A DNA stretch of 60,262 bases from Opitutus sp. GAS368 (GTDB lineage: Bacteria; Verrucomicrobiota; Verrucomicrobiia; Opitutales; Opitutaceae): assembly GCA_945903545.1 (NCBI GenBank), contig CAMDOO010000007.1:1-60262 (forward strand), written 5' to 3'. This document shows, piece after piece, positions 5,316 to 58,254 of this stretch. How positions within the stretch are numbered: the first letter of the stretch is position 1; each line of letters opens with the position of its first letter. The notes under the pieces are model-generated. The model saw only the letters and a program-made list of their open reading frames with translations. It was not told the origin of the DNA and did not search any database. Position numbers and translations under genes: made by a program.

Positions 5316-5326
5316 AGACTTAAGGA

Positions 5327-5402
5327 GGTAGGGGTGCGTGTCCCCACGCGCCCAGGTTCGTTGGTGGTGCAAAAGGGCGGCTGGGGACAGCCGCCCCTAC
5401 CC
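5327..5402. repeat. Family B bipartite palindromic element (pgk-tpiA gap)
   Basis: The element has two hairpin arms. One is GTGCGTGTCCCCACGCGCCC and the other GGGCGGCTGGGGACAGCCGC, with outer ends GGTAGGGG and CCCCTACC that are complementary to each other. The spacer here is about 26 nt. Other copies are at 33053-33140, 58148-58237 and, reversed, inside mnmA at 11193-11258. Confidence 0.85.
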
Positions 5403-5412
5403 TTTGGATGAT

Positions 5413-8045: not shown

Positions 8046-10505
8046 CTAGAAACCATCCCAGCTCCACAGACCGCAGCCCAGGGCCGGCAGGAAGAGCTCC
8101 CGCTCGACGCGCTGGCGCGCCCCCGGGCCCTCGGCACCGTGGAAGACGTCGGCATTCGCGACCTGACGCCAGTTGCCGGCGGCAATCTCGTCGTCCAGGG
8201 TGATGCAGGTCTCGCGGTAGGTCGGGTTGACGGCGAAGAGCAATTGCTGGCCGCCTTGGGAGCGGTCGGCGTTGTACACGACCGCCGCCGCGGTCGAATC
8301 CGGTGTGAAGAAGAACCGGAAAAAACCCTCCGTCGACCGGTTGTAATGCCGCAACAGCCGGCCCGCCTCACTGCGGCGGAAGGCGATCCAGGCCGCAAAA
8401 TAGGCATGGGTGCCCGGGAAGCGGTGCAGCCGCCGGTAATCGAGCGCGTTGAGGTCGCCGCGCAGGTAGGTGTTGTTCACCCCATGCTTCGAGCGCAGGA
8501 AGTCCTGGCCGGCCGCGATCATGGGGATGCCGATCGACGCGAACAGGATCGCCGCCATGAGATGGGTCCGCCGCCGGTCGTTGTCCGTCACCGTGTGGCC
8601 GCTGCCGTTCTTGTTCTCCGTGATCTGGTCGATCCAGCAGGTGTCGTCATGCGATTCCGTGTAATTCACGGTCTGGGCCGGCCACTTGGCGAAATACCAG
8701 GGCGAGCCGCGGAGGAAATACTCGAACTGCTCCCGGCTCGCACCGCCCCGGACGTAATCGCGCAGAAAATTACGGTAGCCGTCGTTCCAGGAGGCGTAAC
8801 CCGTGTCGCGCAGCGCACCGGCGATGTGGCCGCGGAAGCTCCAGGGTTCGGCGATCAGGATCACGTCGGGCTTCACCTGCTTGACCCGCCGCTCGATGTC
8901 GACCAGCACGTCGCGGCCGATCAACTCGGCCAGGTCGAGCCGGAAGCCGTCCACGCCGTAGGTCTCGACGAGGTGGATCAGGCTGTCCGCGATCAGGCGC
9001 CGCGCCATCGCCGACCGGCAGCGAAGGTCGTTGCCGCAGCCGCTCCAGTTCGTCAGCTGGCCGGTGTTGTCGACCTCGAAGTAGTACAACGGGTCGATCA
9101 GCATCAGGTGCGCCGGTTCACCGACATGATTGTAGACCACGTCGAGGATCACCGCGATGCCGCGCCGGTGCAGGGCGCGCACGAGGTCCTGAAGCTCCTT
9201 CACGCCAGAGCCGGTCGCGGGGTCGAGGCTGTAGCCGCTCTCGGGCGCGAAGTAACTGTTGGTCATGTAACCCCAGTGGTATTCCTCCCGGGTCTGGTTA
9301 TCGAATTCCTGCACCGGCTGCAGTTCGACGGCGTTCACCCCGAGCTGGGAGAGGTAGAAATCCGGGCTCTCCACCCACTTCGTCAGCCCGGTGAACCCGA
9401 GCCGCTCCTCGTCCGTCAGCGCCACCGGGGCCTTCGCGACCAGGTCGCGCACGTGGGCCTCGGCGATGACCAGGTCCTGCCAGGCCGGGGTCCGGAAGGC
9501 GCGGTCGCCGGGACCGATCCGGGACCGATCCAGCACGATGCCCGGGCCGTCCCGGCCGACACTCGCCAGTGCATAGGGATCGAGGATCCGTGACTCGGGA
9601 TGGAAGCTCCCGTGGATATCGTTGGGGCCCGCCACCGAGTACCAATAGAACCAGCCGTGCATGTTGCCATCGAGGGCGATTTCCCAGGCGCCGCGCCAGA
9701 CCCCATCGGCCTCCGGCTGCCGGTCCAAGGCGTAGCGGTGCGGCAGCGCCGTGCCGGCGAGGTCCTCGCAGACCGCGAGCCCGACCCGCTGCGCCCGCGG
9801 GGCGAAAAGCCGGAACACCGTCACGTCTTCCTCGACGATCGCCCCGAGGGGATGCTCCGTCGCAAGCTCGTGGAAAAACGCCCCGGGCCGCAGCGGGACG
9901 AGCGAGTGGTGCTCGTCCCCCCACCCGACGGTCCAGGCCTGCGTCAGGTCGAGCGGCTCGCCCAGCTTGAAACCGAAGAGGTGACGGCCCGTGCGCGTGG
10001 CATCGAAGAGATAGTTGACGTTGCCGCCCTCGTCGCGGACCTCGTTCGGCGCGGCGGCCGGGACCGGCAACCATTGCCCGCGGGCGGTCGCAAACTTGAA
10101 CCGGTGCTCGGTTTGGAAACGCCCGGTCGGGCCCGACCAGACCAGCGCCGGCTCGCCCGCAATCACCCCCGGCACGAGGCACCACTCCTCCTGCCCGATC
10201 GCCTGGGACCAGCCGTTAAAGTCGCCCGCGAGGTAGACGACCTCATGCGCCGGATCGAGCTCCGGGTAGCGGGCCAGCGGAATGAAAAAACAGACCTCGC
10301 CCGCCGCGTTGACGAAATAGCCGCTTTCCCGGCCGAACAGAGTTTCCGGCAGCGGGGCCAGTTTTGCCATCACCACGCAGACCTCCTCGCGGCAGATCGC
10401 CAGAGGAGGCGCGTGGCGCGCCCGCCAGTCGTGGCGGAGCTCGATCACGCCGGAATTCGGGGACTCGAGCCAGGCTTGGGAGATCGGATGCTGACGCGGA
10501 GCCAT
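8046..10505 (-). CDS. GH13 alpha-amylase-family enzyme, pullulanase/debranching type
   Basis: The 819-residue protein has N-terminal CBM48-like beta-sandwich segments (about 60-330, VYLAGDFNGW) and then a GH13 catalytic barrel. The four conserved regions are present: DVVYNH (about 455), GFRLDLAEL with the nucleophile Asp near 523, IAEPW with the acid Glu near 551, and NYTESHDD with the transition-state Asp near 619. It likely hydrolyses alpha-1,6 or alpha-1,4 links in glycogen, starch or pullulan; the exact specificity cannot be read from the sequence. No signal peptide is evident, which fits a cytoplasmic glycogen role. It is a single gene, and an ATG at about 10370 (MAKLAPLP) is an alternative start. 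Confidence 0.88.
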   Translation of the reverse strand: MAPRQHPISQAWLESPNSGVIELRHDWRARHAPPLAICREEVCVVMAKLAPLPETLFGRESGYFVNAAGEVCFFIPLARYPELDPAHEVVYLAGDFNGWSQAIGQEEWCLVPGVIAGEPALVWSGPTGRFQTEHRFKFATARGQWLPVPAAAPNEVRDEGGNVNYLFDATRTGRHLFGFKLGEPLDLTQAWTVGWGDEHHSLVPLRPGAFFHELATEHPLGAIVEEDVTVFRLFAPRAQRVGLAVCEDLAGTALPHRYALDRQPEADGVWRGAWEIALDGNMHGWFYWYSVAGPNDIHGSFHPESRILDPYALASVGRDGPGIVLDRSRIGPGDRAFRTPAWQDLVIAEAHVRDLVAKAPVALTDEERLGFTGLTKWVESPDFYLSQLGVNAVELQPVQEFDNQTREEYHWGYMTNSYFAPESGYSLDPATGSGVKELQDLVRALHRRGIAVILDVVYNHVGEPAHLMLIDPLYYFEVDNTGQLTNWSGCGNDLRCRSAMARRLIADSLIHLVETYGVDGFRLDLAELIGRDVLVDIERRVKQVKPDVILIAEPWSFRGHIAGALRDTGYASWNDGYRNFLRDYVRGGASREQFEYFLRGSPWYFAKWPAQTVNYTESHDDTCWIDQITENKNGSGHTVTDNDRRRTHLMAAILFASIGIPMIAAGQDFLRSKHGVNNTYLRGDLNALDYRRLHRFPGTHAYFAAWIAFRRSEAGRLLRHYNRSTEGFFRFFFTPDSTAAAVVYNADRSQGGQQLLFAVNPTYRETCITLDDEIAAGNWRQVANADVFHGAEGPGARQRVERELFLPALGCGLWSWDGF

Positions 10506-10575
10506 GAAAGATACTGAGCATTCCCCGGGCCGGGTTCACGACAAGCTGGAACTCGGGCAGCATCCGCCGCCATCC

Positions 10576-10710
10576 CGGTAGGGCGGCGACTCCGCTCGCC
10601 GCCGGGCTCGCAGGGTCACCGCTTGCGGCGGACCTGGATCGGGATCCGGCCCTGCGCAAGCGCAGGCCGTGCAATTCATCCCGGCGCGGACGGAGTCCGC
10701 GCCCTACCGG
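10576..10710. repeat. Family F composite inverted repeat upstream of mnmA
   Basis: The region begins CGGTAGGGCGGCGACTCCGC and ends CGGAGTCCGCGCCCTACCGG, with internal palindromes such as CCTGCGCAAGCGCAGG. Its outer ends are inverted copies. Single arms of the same family occur at 2676-2704, 29919-29945 and 54433-54461. The rest of the 284-base gap between the divergent GH13 and mnmA genes shows no gene. Confidence 0.75.
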
Positions 10711-10789
10711 CAGAACATCGAAGATCCCGAAATGTGCCCGATTTGATTGCGACCGGGGTGCTCCCTGTCCCATCAATTCAACCCCTTCC

Positions 10790-11929
10790 ATGGCCACCCG
10801 CGAAAAGATCCTCGTCGCGCTCTCCGGCGGCGTCGACAGCTCCGTCGCCGCGCTTCTGCTCAAGCAGCAGGGCCACGACGTGAGCGCGGCCTACATGAAG
10901 AACTGGATCAATGAGGACAATATCATCGGCGATTGTCCCTGGCAGCAGGACATCGTCGATGCCCGGGCGGTGGCGGAGCGGATCGGCATTCCCTTCGAGG
11001 TCGTGAACCTGATGCGGGAATACCGCGAGAAGGTCGTCGCCTACCTGCTCGACGGTTACGCCCGGGGGCTAACGCCCAACCCGGACATCATGTGCAACCG
11101 GGAGATCAAGTTCGGCGTGTTGCTCCAGTGGGCCCGCGAACATGGCTACACGGCCGTTGCGACCGGACACTATGCGCGGAGGATGGAAACAGAGGCAGGG
11201 GCGGCTGTCCCTAGCCACCCTGGTTCGGAAGGGCGCGTGGGACACGCGCCCCTACCTTCCTTCGACCTCCTTGAGGGTGCCGACAAGAACAAGGACCAGT
11301 CCTATTTCCTCGCCCTGCTCCACCAGGACCAGATCCGCGCGGCGCGATTTCCCATCGGTCATCTGGCGAAGCCCGAGTTGCGGCGACTGGCGCGCGAGGC
11401 CGGACTGCCGACGGCGGACAAGAAGGACAGCCAGGGCATCTGCTTCATCGGCGAGGTGAAGATGCAGGATTTCCTCCGCACCTATGTACCCGACCGCCCG
11501 GGCCCGATCGTCCGCGCCGCCGACGGCCGCGAGCTCGGCCACCACCGCGGACTGCACTATTATACCCTGGGCCAGCGCCGCGGCATCGGCGTCCCCTCGA
11601 ACGCCGACCACGAGAACTACGTCGTCACCGGCAAACGGGCCGCGGACAATGCGCTGCTCGTCGCGTTCGACCATCCGGAAGCCCCCGGCCTCTTCCAATG
11701 CGAGGTGCGCGTGCACAGTCTCAGCTGGACCCGCGATCCCATCACGACCTTGAGGACCCTCGAGGGCCGCGTCCGCTACCGCGACCCGCGGGTGGGATTG
11801 ACGATCACGCCCGAGGGCGGAGGCACCGCCCTGATCACGTTCGCCGAGCCGCAGCGCGCCCTCGCCAGCGGACAGATCCTCGCGCTCTACGAAGCCGAGC
11901 GGCTGCTCGGTGGCGGGGTGTATGTGTAG
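10790..11929 (+). CDS. mnmA: tRNA-specific 2-thiouridylase
   Basis: The 379-residue enzyme adds sulfur to U34 of Lys, Glu and Gln tRNAs using ATP. The PP-loop SGGVDSS (12-18) and both catalytic cysteines, Cys102 in [13 protein letters not shown] and Cys218 in SQGICFIG, are intact, as is the [12 protein letters not shown] segment. Between YARRME and the LLEGADKN segment, residues about 135-157 are encoded by a reversed copy of dispersed repeat family B; standard MnmA proteins have only a short variable loop here. Because the insert is in frame and lies between conserved segments, the enzyme may still fold. The gene is convergent with fcl. Confidence 0.95.
11193..11258. repeat. Family B element inside mnmA (reverse orientation)
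   Basis: Read on the minus strand this is GGTAGGGGCGCGTGTCCC, ACGCGCCC, a short centre, then GGCTAGGGACAGCCGCCCCT: the same two-hairpin order as the intergenic copies at 5327, 33053 and 58148 but with a spacer of only about a dozen bases. It is a multiple of three in effect and adds about 22 codons to mnmA. Confidence 0.85.
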
Positions 11930-11940
11930 GCAGGGGCCGA

Positions 11941-12001
11941 CGTCCCGGCGGCCCGGGTCGGCGGAATCAAAGGCGGTCAGGGACAACGACCCGCCGGGAC
12001 G
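11941..12001. repeat. Inverted repeat between mnmA and fcl (family N)
   Basis: CGTCCCGGCGG at 11941-11951 is exactly matched by its reverse complement CCGCCGGGACG at 11991-12001, with 39 nt between. It lies between two convergent genes and may act as a bidirectional transcription barrier. Confidence 0.7.
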
Positions 12002-12022
12002 ACGGGCACTACCTCAAACCAC

Positions 12023-12958
12023 TCAGGTCCGCAGCGTCCCGGACGCCTGCTCCGTAAGGAACGAGGCGTAGGTTTTCTCCATGCCCTCGCGCAGGCCGAG
12101 GCGGGCCTTCCAGCCCAACTGAGCGAGGCGCGTGACATCCAGCAGCTTGCGGGGCGTGCCGTCGGGCTTCGAGGCATCCCAGGTGATCCGGCCCTTAAAA
12201 CCCGTCACCGCGGCGACGCACTCGGTCAGCTCGCGAATCGTGACATCCGTGCCCGTGCCCACGTTGATCCAATCGGGCGGGTCCTTCAGGTTAAGCAGAA
12301 AGGCGCAGGCATCGGCCAGGTCGTCGACGTGCAGGAACTCGCGCTTCGGCGTGCCGGAACCCCAGGCGGTGACCTCAGGCCGGCCGGCGAGCTTCGCCTC
12401 GTGGAAGCGCCGGATCAGCGCCGGCAGCACGTGTGAGTTCTGGGCGTGGTAGTTGTCGCCCGGGCCGTAGAGGTTCGTCGGCATCGCCGAGTAGAACAGC
12501 ACGCCGTGCTGCTTGCGGTAGTACTGGCAGAGCTTGAGCCCGGCGATCTTGGCGATGGCGTAGGCCTCGTTGGTCGGCTCCAGAGCACTCGTGAGGAGGC
12601 AATCCTCGGGCATCGGCTGCGGCGCGAGCTTGGGATAGATGCAGGAGCTGCCGAGGAACAGCAGGCGCGGCACCTTGTGCTTGAAGGCCGCCCCGATGGT
12701 GTTCGACGCGATTGCAAGGTTCTCAAAGAGGAAGTCGGCCGGATAGGTGTTGTTGGCATGGATGCCACCGACCTTGGCCGCGGCCACGATAACGACGTCC
12801 GGCTTCTCCGCCCCGACGAGTGCATCCACGGCGGCCTGATTATTGAGGTCCACCTCGCGCCGCGTGCGCAGGACGAGCGTCACACCCGCCTCCCGCTGGA
12901 AACGGCGCACCAGCGCCGACCCGACCATCCCCTGGTGACCTGCGATGTAGAGCTTCAT
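12023..12958 (-). CDS. fcl: GDP-L-fucose synthase
   Basis: The 311-residue short-chain dehydrogenase epimerises and reduces GDP-4-keto-6-deoxymannose to GDP-L-fucose with NADPH. The nucleotide-binding motif GHQGMVGSA is at residues 7-15; the catalytic Ser is in [10 protein letters not shown] (about 105) and Tyr133/Lys137 are in YAIAKIAG. Length is typical for the family. It is the second gene of a gmd-fcl pair, 109 nt downstream of gmd with a family H repeat between them. The product feeds fucosylated surface polysaccharide; no glycosyltransferase is near. Confidence 0.96.
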
Positions 12959-19439: not shown

Positions 19440-20249
19440 ATGATCGACTGGCGCCACTGGCACAACGAGCCCTACCTAGTCGGCGGTCTGGTCTTCGTGG
19501 GTTGGCTCTATGCCATCCTCGCCGGACCCTGGCGCACGCGGCTGGCGCCCGCCGGCACTCCCTTCCCGCGCCGGCGCGCCGCCGCCTTTGCGGCCGCGCT
19601 CCTGCTCTTCTACCTCGCGGTGGGCTCGCCGCTGGACCAGATCGGCGAACGCTTCCTGTTCAGCGCCCACATGCTGCAGCACCAGATCCTCGTCTATCCG
19701 GCGGCGGTGCTGTTCCTCCTCGGCCTGCCGGTCTGGATGGTGGATCCCGTCCTCGCCCGGCCGAGCCTGCAGCCGTTCCTCCGTTTTCTCTTCAACCCGC
19801 TGATCTGCGGCATCCTCTACACCCTCGTGATCTCGCTCTGGCACATGCCGGACCTGTACGACCTGGCCCTCCGGCAGAAAACCGTGCACGTGGCCGAGCA
19901 CCTCTCGTTCTTCGGGGCCGCCCTGCTCTACTGGTGGCCGCTGCTCAGCCCCTCCCGCGCCCATCCCCCTGTGCTGCCGCCGGTGCAGATGCTTTATCTC
20001 CTTGGCGTCGTGATCGGGATGACCCCGATCTTCGCCTACCTCGTTTTCTCCGACAATATCCTCTATCCGACGTACGAGTTCGCCCCGCGCTTGTTCGCGG
20101 ACTTTGACGCCGCTTCCGACCAGCTCCTGGCCGGCACGATGATGAAGATCATCGGCCTGATGGTGTCCGTCACGGCGCTCTGCTGGAGCTTCTATACCTG
20201 GAGCGCTCAGAAATCGGATGCTGGCGACGGCCCGGCCAATCCGCGCTAG
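19440..20249 (+). CDS. ctaG: Caa3-type cytochrome oxidase assembly factor CtaG
   Basis: The 269-residue membrane protein has about seven hydrophobic segments and the family's conserved histidine-containing segments FSAHMLQHQIL (about 75-85), SLWHMPDLYD and AEHLSFFGAALLYWWP. The caa3 CtaG family helps assemble the CuB centre. Its place directly after the oxidase genes agrees. The last codon pair and TAG stop fall on the outer end (CTAGAGC) of a large palindromic repeat, so the true C-terminus may have been set by that insertion. Confidence 0.9.
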   Translation: MIDWRHWHNEPYLVGGLVFVGWLYAILAGPWRTRLAPAGTPFPRRRAAAFAAALLLFYLAVGSPLDQIGERFLFSAHMLQHQILVYPAAVLFLLGLPVWMVDPVLARPSLQPFLRFLFNPLICGILYTLVISLWHMPDLYDLALRQKTVHVAEHLSFFGAALLYWWPLLSPSRAHPPVLPPVQMLYLLGVVIGMTPIFAYLVFSDNILYPTYEFAPRLFADFDAASDQLLAGTMMKIIGLMVSVTALCWSFYTWSAQKSDAGDGPANPR

Positions 20250-20366
20250 AGCTGTTTCAAAAATACTGTAGCCGGGGTCGTTGACCCCGGGACCTGCGGA
20301 CCGCGAATCAAGAATGGCAAACCGGGGTCAACGACCCCGGCTACAGAAATCTTTAAAATGCTCTAG
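20246..20366. repeat. Family C composite palindrome, about 120 bp, overlapping the ctaG stop
   Basis: The core is TGTAGCCGGGGTCGTTGACC (20267 on) with its inverted copy GGTCAACGACCCCGGCTACA (to 20345) around a 30-nt centre. Outside the core, CTAGAGC at 20246 faces GCTCTAG at 20360-20366 with partly matching AT-rich flanks, so the whole unit is a nested imperfect inverted repeat resembling a MITE. Solo arms occur at 43177-43200 and 49364-49394. Confidence 0.8.
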
Positions 20367-20426
20367 GGCAGGCCCGCCGGCTCGCCCTGCCCCCGGAAGA
20401 ACCAGGCAGTTCCCGATGTACCGGCA

Positions 20427-26046: not shown

Positions 26047-26216
26047 CCCTAGGTACAGAGACGCAGAGATCGGAGGGTTTTGGATTCTGAACCCAAATCA
26101 AAACAACGAGGCTTGGGCTCTGTGCGCTCTGTGTCTCTGTGGCAAAAAATCCGGAATAATCCCCGGCAGCCCCCAACCCGTTCGGCTTCGCCCAGGGCCT
26201 TGAGCCTGTCGAAACG
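26047..26216. repeat. Family D long imperfect inverted repeat plus a family A arm
   Basis: GGTACAGAGACGCAGAGATC on the left faces GCTCTGTGTCTCTGTGGCAA on the right (to 26152), with an inner CAACGAGGCTTGGGCTCTG arm. Adjacent is family A, GGGCCTTGAGCCTGTCGAAA (26197-26216). Together these fill the 315-base gap before the small gene at 26247, with nothing else recognisable. Confidence 0.75.
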
Positions 26217-27925: not shown

Positions 27926-27987
27926 GTGCCGGGGGCAGGGGCGACGTGATTGAGCCAGGATTGTGACACCACAAACCCTGGATCCAA

Positions 27988-28108
27988 ACCGGTTTTGCCA
28001 CAGAGACCCAGAGCACGCAGAGCCCAAGCCTCGTTGTTTTTGGTTGGGAACCGGAAGCTTCCAAGCATCCGGCCTCGGTGCGCTCTGTGCCGCTGTGGCA
28101 AAAAAGGC
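27988..28108. repeat. Family D inverted repeat
   Basis: TTTTGCCACAGAGACCCAGA on the left faces GTGCCGCTGTGGCAAAAAAG on the right, with a CCCAAGCCTCGTTGTTTTTG inner arm like those at 34808 and 44313. It lies in the 256-base gap between the unknown protein and the S4 protein gene and would extend the S4 frame if upstream starts were used. Confidence 0.8.
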
Positions 28109-28181
28109 TTCGTGCTATCCCGAGGCACCGATTCGCCTGTTCCTTTGCTCGGCCTTCAGGGAGTGTGGGGTTGTGACTGCC

Positions 28182-33047: not shown

Positions 33048-33052
33048 GGAAA

Positions 33053-33140
33053 GGTAGGGGCGCGTGTCCCCACGCGCCCTGGTTGCGTCATCGCGCCATC
33101 GGGGCCGAACCCAGGGCGGCTGGGGACAGCCGCCCCTACC
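33053..33140. repeat. Family B element (ATPase-permease 1 gap)
   Basis: GGTAGGGGCGCGTGTCCCCA and CGCGCCCTGG form the first hairpin; CCAGGGCGGCTGGGGACAGC and CGCCCCTACC form the second, with about 28 nt between. It is nearly identical in its arms to the copy at 58148-58237. It fills most of the 108-nt gap. Confidence 0.88.
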
Positions 33141-33155
33141 CCCGGACCGATGAAT

Positions 33156-43159: not shown

Positions 43160-43176
43160 GGACGGCTGAGGATTTT

Positions 43177-43200
43177 TGTAGCCGGGGTCGTTGACCCCGG
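43177..43200. repeat. Family C solo arm
   Basis: TGTAGCCGGGGTCGTTGACC followed by CCGG matches the left arm of the 20246-20366 element over 24 bases and is itself a palindrome around GTCGTTGAC. It lies between the two methyltransferase genes. Confidence 0.75.
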
Positions 43201-43271
43201 TTCCGATCCGCCGGCCTCACCGAGGTCAGCTCCAAGTAACCGCTACGCACTTTCCCACCCGCGATCTTTCA

Positions 43272-44312: not shown

Positions 44313-44483
44313 TTTTTCGCCACAGAGGCACAGAGAGCACAGAGCCCGAGCCTCGTTGATATCAGTCGATTCCGAATCTGGGCATCTTTCTCGACGGATC
44401 AGACTGACTTCGCGGATCATCGGTCCGGGGCGATTAAAACAACGAGGCTTGGGCCCTGTGCTCTCTGTGCCTCTGTGGCAAAA
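44313..44483. repeat. Family D inverted repeat with an inserted family K arm
   Basis: TTTTTCGCCACAGAGGCACA at the left faces GTGCCTCTGTGGCAAAA at the right, with inner CCCGAGCCTCGTTG and CAACGAGGCTTGGG arms. The centre (about 44378-44428) holds GACGGATCAGACTGACTTCG, which resembles the family K element at the end of the window, so one repeat seems to have inserted into another. This fills most of the 334-base gap before the small basic gene. Confidence 0.8.
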
Positions 44484-44607
44484 CATCCGGGAATCATTAT
44501 CACGACGGGTCGAACCCGTCTCGCCCACCATGGGAACACGGCCCGTCCGGGCGCTTGACTCGTCCGCCGCCGCCCGCAACTTCATGGGCCTTACACACCA
44601 ACTTACC

Positions 44608-58092: not shown

Positions 58093-58147
58093 GGCATCGC
58101 CTCAGCTCCATGGGCAAAACAGACGGCGTGATTGTCGCGGCCATCGA

Positions 58148-58237
58148 GGTAGGGGCGCGTGTCCCCACGCGCCCTGGCTTGATTCCGCCGCGGCGCCAAG
58201 TGACGAACCAGGGCGGCTGAGGACAGCCGCCCCTACC
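58148..58237. repeat. Family B element before the small membrane protein gene
   Basis: The arms GGTAGGGGCGCGTGTCCCCA/CGCGCCCTGG and CCAGGGCGGCTGAGGACAGC/CGCCCCTACC are nearly identical to 33053-33140, with a spacer of about 30 nt. It lies between the PIG-L gene and the small membrane protein gene and ends 17 nt before the start codon of the latter. Confidence 0.88.
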
Positions 58238-58254
58238 CTCTGTGATGATCTGAG

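Follow-up and report, generated by a model that had tools for sequence, protein, structure and literature searches.

The mnmA gene of Opitutus sp. GAS368 was found to contain a dispersed palindromic repeat that is read in frame, and the same loop of MnmA was found to hold different repeats in many other members of the Opitutaceae. The reading that we favor, with a probability of roughly 0.85, is that mobile palindromes have been captured repeatedly by a tolerant hairpin tip of MnmA in this family and have then decayed, been lost or been replaced. The observations that bear on it directly are the identity of the repeat, its frame, the open gene, the short loops of the sister genomes, the location of the insert at a hairpin tip in a structure model, and the recurrence with different repeats. 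The first-pass annotation of the 60,262-nucleotide stretch that was analyzed (the window) had missed that the insert is one case of a process repeated at one loop.

The mnmA gene and its product

The mnmA gene, which hosts the insert, was located at positions 10790-11929 of the forward strand and encodes a tRNA 2-thiouridylase of 379 amino acids, as determined from its open reading frame, its Pfam and PDB matches, and structure alignment. All three MnmA domains (PF03054, PF20259, and PF20258) were detected in the product, which also matched the PDB entries 2hma and 2der. An AlphaFold2 model was built on a 64-sequence alignment (mean pLDDT 89.1) and was compared by VIA-align with 2hma (Z 44.6, rmsd 1.8 over 350) and with 2det (Z 44.1, rmsd 1.6 over 353); as modeled, the product has the overall MnmA fold. 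The first-pass annotation had considered the PP-loop and both cysteines to be intact, and SGGVDS (S12-S17), C102 and C218 were indeed invariant in the 64 sequences. We take C102 and C218 to be the catalytic cysteines of MnmA, and the role of the PP-loop is assumed likewise. None of the mnmA matches listed in the search of Opitutaceae genomes contained an internal stop.

Other palindromic repeats lie on either side of the gene, namely a GGTAGGGCGGCG..CGCGCCCTACCG repeat pair upstream (10577-10709) and a GACGTCCCGGCGG..CCGCCGGGACG repeat downstream (11932-12007). Repeats of the latter type also adjoin several copies of the family found inside mnmA (L007, L011, L013, and L026).

The family-B repeat in mnmA and in the rest of the genome

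The repeat in mnmA, a 66-nt member of family B at positions 11193-11258 (forward strand), encodes residues 135-157, and the in-frame reading that the first-pass annotation had proposed was confirmed. Three other copies are present in the window at 5326-5406, 33052-33145 and 58147-58242, all on the reverse strand, and they appear to be intergenic from repeat and codon-signal analysis. No coding frame passes through them according to codon signal, the copy at 33052 being inside an open forward frame with a weak coding signal, and their earlier placement between genes can be retained. The description of the mnmA copy as reversed and compact holds in that its orientation is opposite to that of the other three and its spacer is approximately 8 nt long versus approximately 20-34 nt, but compact copies like it are common elsewhere in the source genome.

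A search of the source genome with the 66-nt repeat gave at least 59 matches, which merge into at least 40 family-B elements; 40 of the 68 candidates were scored, and these counts are therefore lower bounds. The best other copy among the matches listed was 88% identical over 66 nt (E 3.9e-16). The family-B arms are GTAGGGGCG..CGCCCT and AGGGCG..CGCCCCTAC, and a typical copy consists of AGGTAGGGGCG(CG/GC)..CGCCCT, a spacer, and AGGGCG..CGCCCCTACCT. The feet of the mnmA copy are GCAG at the 5′ side and CTAC at the 3′ side. Judged from these sequence features, family B is a GTAG-type REP dimer (REPIN-like), in which two inverted palindromic units form one hairpin. Most of the elements lie between genes, with 11 of the 40 located in some open frame and the rest judged by codon signal only.

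An alignment was made of 24 of the 40 elements (L016 and L027 represent a single element). All three in-frame intragenic copies (L001 1501-1566, L002 1501-1566, and L023 1501-1596) contain GTCCCTA(G/A)CC, while most aligned copies contain GTCCCCAGCC. This T variant was noted post hoc and is present in 4 of the 24 aligned copies, the fourth being L025; it may mark a shared subfamily or, alternatively, a weakened closing pair of the hairpin. The window also holds two other dispersed palindromic families, GTAGCCGGGGTCGTTGACCCCGG at 20232-20380 and 43170-43202, and CAACGAGGCTTGGGC..CACAGAG at 26092-26154, 27986-28110 and 44313-44490.

Evidence for insertion and position of the insert

The MnmA loop was defined as the stretch between the ATGHY and DKNKDQ motifs. 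It is 36 amino acids long in the source genome and 18 amino acids long in G030 and G072, the two same-genus genomes searched, and among these three genomes of the genus the insert is present in the source genome only. In its own-genome search, G030 was found to carry two family-B matches, neither of which is in mnmA, and no relative was met that had the same residues while being free of family B. Comparison with the solved MnmA 9hlv gave a similar picture, with 2 residues between the aligned stretches versus 21 in the source MnmA. Because the sister loops have diverged, a target duplication and an exact empty site are not readable. The evidence supports the entry of a dispersed palindrome into mnmA in frame, and the gene looks intact.

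In the AlphaFold2 model, the insert is carried by a beta-hairpin (11174-11275, forward strand) with strands at residues 129-134 and 157-162 and a tip at residues 135-156. The mean pLDDT of tip residues 141-150 was 49. The model thus predicts a disordered tip and places the insert there, in the beta-hairpin of MnmA that lies between the motifs YAR and DKNKDQ.

Length of the MnmA loop within and outside the Opitutaceae

An mnmA match was obtained in 237 of the 252 Opitutaceae genomes searched. The rate of long loops was taken from an even sample of 61 genomes alone, the loops added later having mostly been chosen for their length. In this even sample, the loop was 16-19 amino acids long in 32 genomes and 22-64 amino acids long in 29, and it reached at least 27 amino acids in 26 genomes, which were spread over 22 of the 49 genera. 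The enlarged set consisted of 118 loops, 80 with at least 22 amino acids and 38 with 16-19. The loop of G182 (L124) was left out of the counts as it failed the motif search, though it is visibly long, and two duplicates were removed beforehand (L110, a double entry, and L157, which repeats G028). A class-wide mnmA search with a cut-off of 1e-90 was not used for counts because this cut-off loses long-loop genes with a split match.

Outside the family, every mnmA match listed for an even sample of the phylum spans at most 1,089 nt. Together with the short loop that is usual within the family, this gave no sign that the insert is an ancestral MnmA loop. Long foldback loops were nevertheless seen, without a z-score, at three loci titled as outside the family (L348, L349, and L354), which rules out a strict confinement of long loops to the Opitutaceae. 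Long MnmA loops therefore seem to be common in the Opitutaceae, and rare but not absent outside. The particular repeat of the source genome was seen at this site in one of the three genomes of the genus, and relatives carry other repeats there.

The neighboring gene gmd was used as a length control; it is a single gene, more conserved than mnmA, and was matched in 56 of the 61 genomes. Its length was 996-1014 nt in 47 listed matches with at least 83% identity, while full matches of lower identity, perhaps paralogues, ranged from 957 to 1014 nt and partial matches were obtained in G030 and G022. The length of gmd is kept in the same genomes in which the MnmA loop varies. Long loops were also found in genomes that consist of a single contig (G003, G020, and G153) and in an isolate, Cephaloticoccus capnophilus (L327), and an assembly error is therefore unlikely as a general cause.

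Nature and history of the loop repeats

Folding of the loop sequences was expressed as a z-score relative to dinucleotide shuffles. The z-score was below -2 in 37 and below -3 in 27 of the 80 long loops, compared with 1 and 0 of 80, respectively, for control stretches of the same mnmA genes (Mann-Whitney p 6e-13); a value below -2 was obtained for 1 of the 38 short loops. The remaining 43 long loops scored above -2, and hence many of them have no clear palindrome. The palindromes in the loops are of several types, including several GTAG REP dimers, GCGGAGTGCGGA-type repeats and GTTGCCCCCAACGCG pairs. Some loops, among them those of G214, G183, G165, and G166, have both a GTAG and a CTAC foot. 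GTAG was never seen in the stop phase (0 of 20), but this follows from accepting open loops only and was not counted as independent evidence.

The L305 loop (G193) holds a perfect palindrome with 28-bp arms and no GTAG feet. Palindromes that are perfect or nearly so, and likewise lack GTAG feet, were also observed in the loops L136 (G151) and L149 (G141), and no further own-genome copies of these three palindromes were found among the matches listed. The loop of L313 is 79 amino acids long and has at least two different palindromes stacked, as if by successive insertions.

To relate loops to the genomes that carry them, 24 of the 80 long loops, selected because they held clear palindromes or words resembling repeats, were searched in their own genomes. 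The loop repeat recurred in at least two further places in 15 of the 24 and in at least one in 16, these numbers being lower bounds; the nine loops with fewer than two further listed copies were those of G026, G022, G003, G193, G141, G083, G151, G092, and G052. These dispersed copies, along with the fold z-scores, make it highly improbable that the long loops are a low-complexity or codon-biased expansion in GC-rich genomes that is palindromic in looks only. Some long loops, such as those of G149, G006, and G078, are indeed rich in Pro, Ala or Ser and show no foldback, but for the copy in the window such an origin is contradicted by its 59 or more own-genome matches.

The 80 long loops were grouped into 47 DNA clusters at one threshold, among them clusters of 10, 10, and 6 loops, while looser clustering gave 36 clusters and chained 32 loops together; the cluster counts depend on the threshold. 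An MnmA tree was built without the loop by a quick method, and 32 of its 115 inner branches are well supported. On this tree, the long or short state of the loop changes at least 24 times and the cluster label changes 65 times. Genomes that share a genus code, as in g16, g18, g37, and g41, differ in the repeat that they carry or have no repeat; g16 does not form one clade on this tree.

These patterns also bear on whether there was a single old insertion in the ancestor of the Opitutaceae, over which repeats resident in each genome were subsequently copied. The occurrence of related repeats in several genera, as in the clusters of 10, 10, and 6 loops and the 32 loops chained at the looser threshold, would fit such a history, as would the frequency of long loops in the family and their absence among the genes from outside it that were listed for the phylum sample. 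We consider it improbable, however, as the tree intersperses short loops with long ones (24 changes) and as loops within one genus are often unrelated (g16, g37, g41, and g18); with 32 of the 115 inner branches well supported, these points weaken such a history rather than dismiss it. About equally improbable is that the insert has been selected, with the hairpin in the mRNA or the tip of the protein serving the host through, for example, translation pausing or an altered contact of MnmA with a partner. In favor of this, many long loops fold strongly and they are widespread; yet they are absent from 32 of the 61 sampled genomes and from both same-genus sisters, their sequences differ widely (47 clusters), the model has low confidence at the tip, and no Rfam family was matched within 10500-12300 of the window. 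Repeated capture of mobile palindromes at the tip remains our preferred reading.

Other genes of the source genome and a second recurrent site

The intragenic copies of family B were counted among the elements listed for the genome, as the first-pass annotation had proposed. Three of the 11 elements in an open frame are bordered by coding signal at either end and lie in a gene matched by Pfam, so that 3 of the 40 elements are in-frame copies in Pfam-supported genes; these encode MnmA, a peptidase U32 and a DUF3418 protein, the last of which we take to be helicase-type. The copies in the U32 gene and in mnmA share 88% identity as well as the reading frame. All three copies use one frame, but this bias is not significant, as two of the three frames are open.

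At the insertion site of the U32 gene, 27 loops were parsed from 30 loci, and 11 had at least 41 amino acids while 16 had 23-37. Several of the long U32 loops fold back clearly. Palindromic U32 inserts were noted in four relatives, L230 (G046), L236 (G021), L237 (G024), and L241 (G056), and the U32 gene of L230 contains a near-perfect, long-armed palindrome inside its reading frame. For DUF3418, 5 of 30 loci were parsed; the insert is present in the source genome, and G005 and G045, compared by length, have long stretches. The U32 site, with its long and partly palindromic inserts in several relatives, rules out that the MnmA case is unique. MnmA is the strongest recurrent site seen and not the sole one.

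The U32 site is also relevant to the possibility of a DNA-level hotspot, in which the mobilizing enzyme would prefer a short stretch of mnmA, such as a small hairpin or a tetranucleotide target, over other tolerant loops. At least 24 changes between long and short at one place, and the sharing of this place by several unrelated repeat types, are what a hotspot could produce. We nevertheless regard it as unlikely, since the site also holds palindromes that lack GTAG feet (G193, G151, G141, and G220), which a single target preference leaves unexplained, and since the recurrent site of the U32 gene lies in a different sequence context. Somewhat less doubtful, though still tentative, is the idea that target preference and tolerance act jointly, so that the MnmA tip of the Opitutaceae would be a landing pad into which spreading palindromes are sampled, translated, and replaced.

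Y1 transposases and the proposed mechanism

Repeated capture, as favored here, may proceed as follows. REP dimers spread within a genome, and a RAYT-type Y1 transposase probably handles them in trans in the form of single-stranded hairpins. Selection presumably removes the majority of the copies that land in genes. The copies that survive would be those in which the frame is kept, no stop is introduced, and the extra residues are tolerated by the protein. The tip of the MnmA beta-hairpin is probably such a tolerant place, where different palindromic repeats have very likely been captured many times in the Opitutaceae, and the captured repeats would then decay, vanish, or be replaced. The transposition mechanism, the neutrality of the inserts, and tolerance as the cause of the recurrence are what we infer.

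Y1_Tnp was detected in 53 of the 61 Opitutaceae genomes of the even sample. The three matches in the source genome (on C18, C44, and C46 of its 122 contigs) are not beside family B, the nearest listed copy on those contigs being approximately 8 kb away. Two genomes, G017 and G023, gave no Y1_Tnp match at E 0.001 despite their many dispersed palindromic repeats and a repeat-bearing loop. Their repeats may be orphan repeats or may be moved by another mobilizer.

Comparison with known repeats

REPs are usually regarded as extragenic. The single event in mnmA is nonetheless of a sort already known, as the available text on GTAG REPs describes in-frame repeats in genes of Opitutus (PMC3733652). In that text, Opitutus terrae has the most intragenic GTAG repeats, with uvrA, DNA ligase, and RNA helicases named, and inverted GTAG REP dimers inside genes encode 20-30 amino acids. 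Family B is likewise made of palindromic units with a GTAG foot, and its inverted dimers are coding in the three genes that hold them in frame. The one shared site reported there is recB of two Xanthomonas species, whereas the recurrence at MnmA extends over a family, and the words mnmA, trmU, and thiouridyl are absent from the main text of PMC3733652.

The REPINs and RAYTs, as portrayed in the portions available of PMC3116915 and PMC2817692, resemble family B in being dispersed inverted REP doublets that form a hairpin, in genomes with Y1-type transposases. They are described as lying mainly outside genes, and RAYT genes as having REPs on their flanks; in the 122 contigs of the source genome, no Y1 gene flanked by a listed family-B copy was seen. 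The 40 or more elements of family B are also fewer than the hundreds that PMC2817692, in its available part, reports for many classical REPs. Rickettsia palindromic elements, going by the accessible description in PMC10969869, are likewise in frame in several protein genes that are not destroyed; the likeness is one of description, and these elements are approximately 150 bp long, the units of the Opitutaceae approximately 60-100 bp. Repeated hits of different families on one loop set MnmA apart from the Rickettsia elements as described there. Recurrent use of one MnmA loop by different palindromes was not found in the literature searched, the supplements of PMC3733652 and most subscription journals being outside that search.

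Significance

One loop with different repeats in many species amounts to a replicated natural record of selfish hairpins becoming protein, from which the surviving frames, the speed of decay, and the tolerance of the enzyme can be told. With denser sampling, this one locus would also allow the rate of insertion, the choice of target, and tolerance to be distinguished. If the tip is truly a landing pad, the Opitutaceae would be running a natural experiment in which peptides are inserted in frame into a single conserved enzyme.
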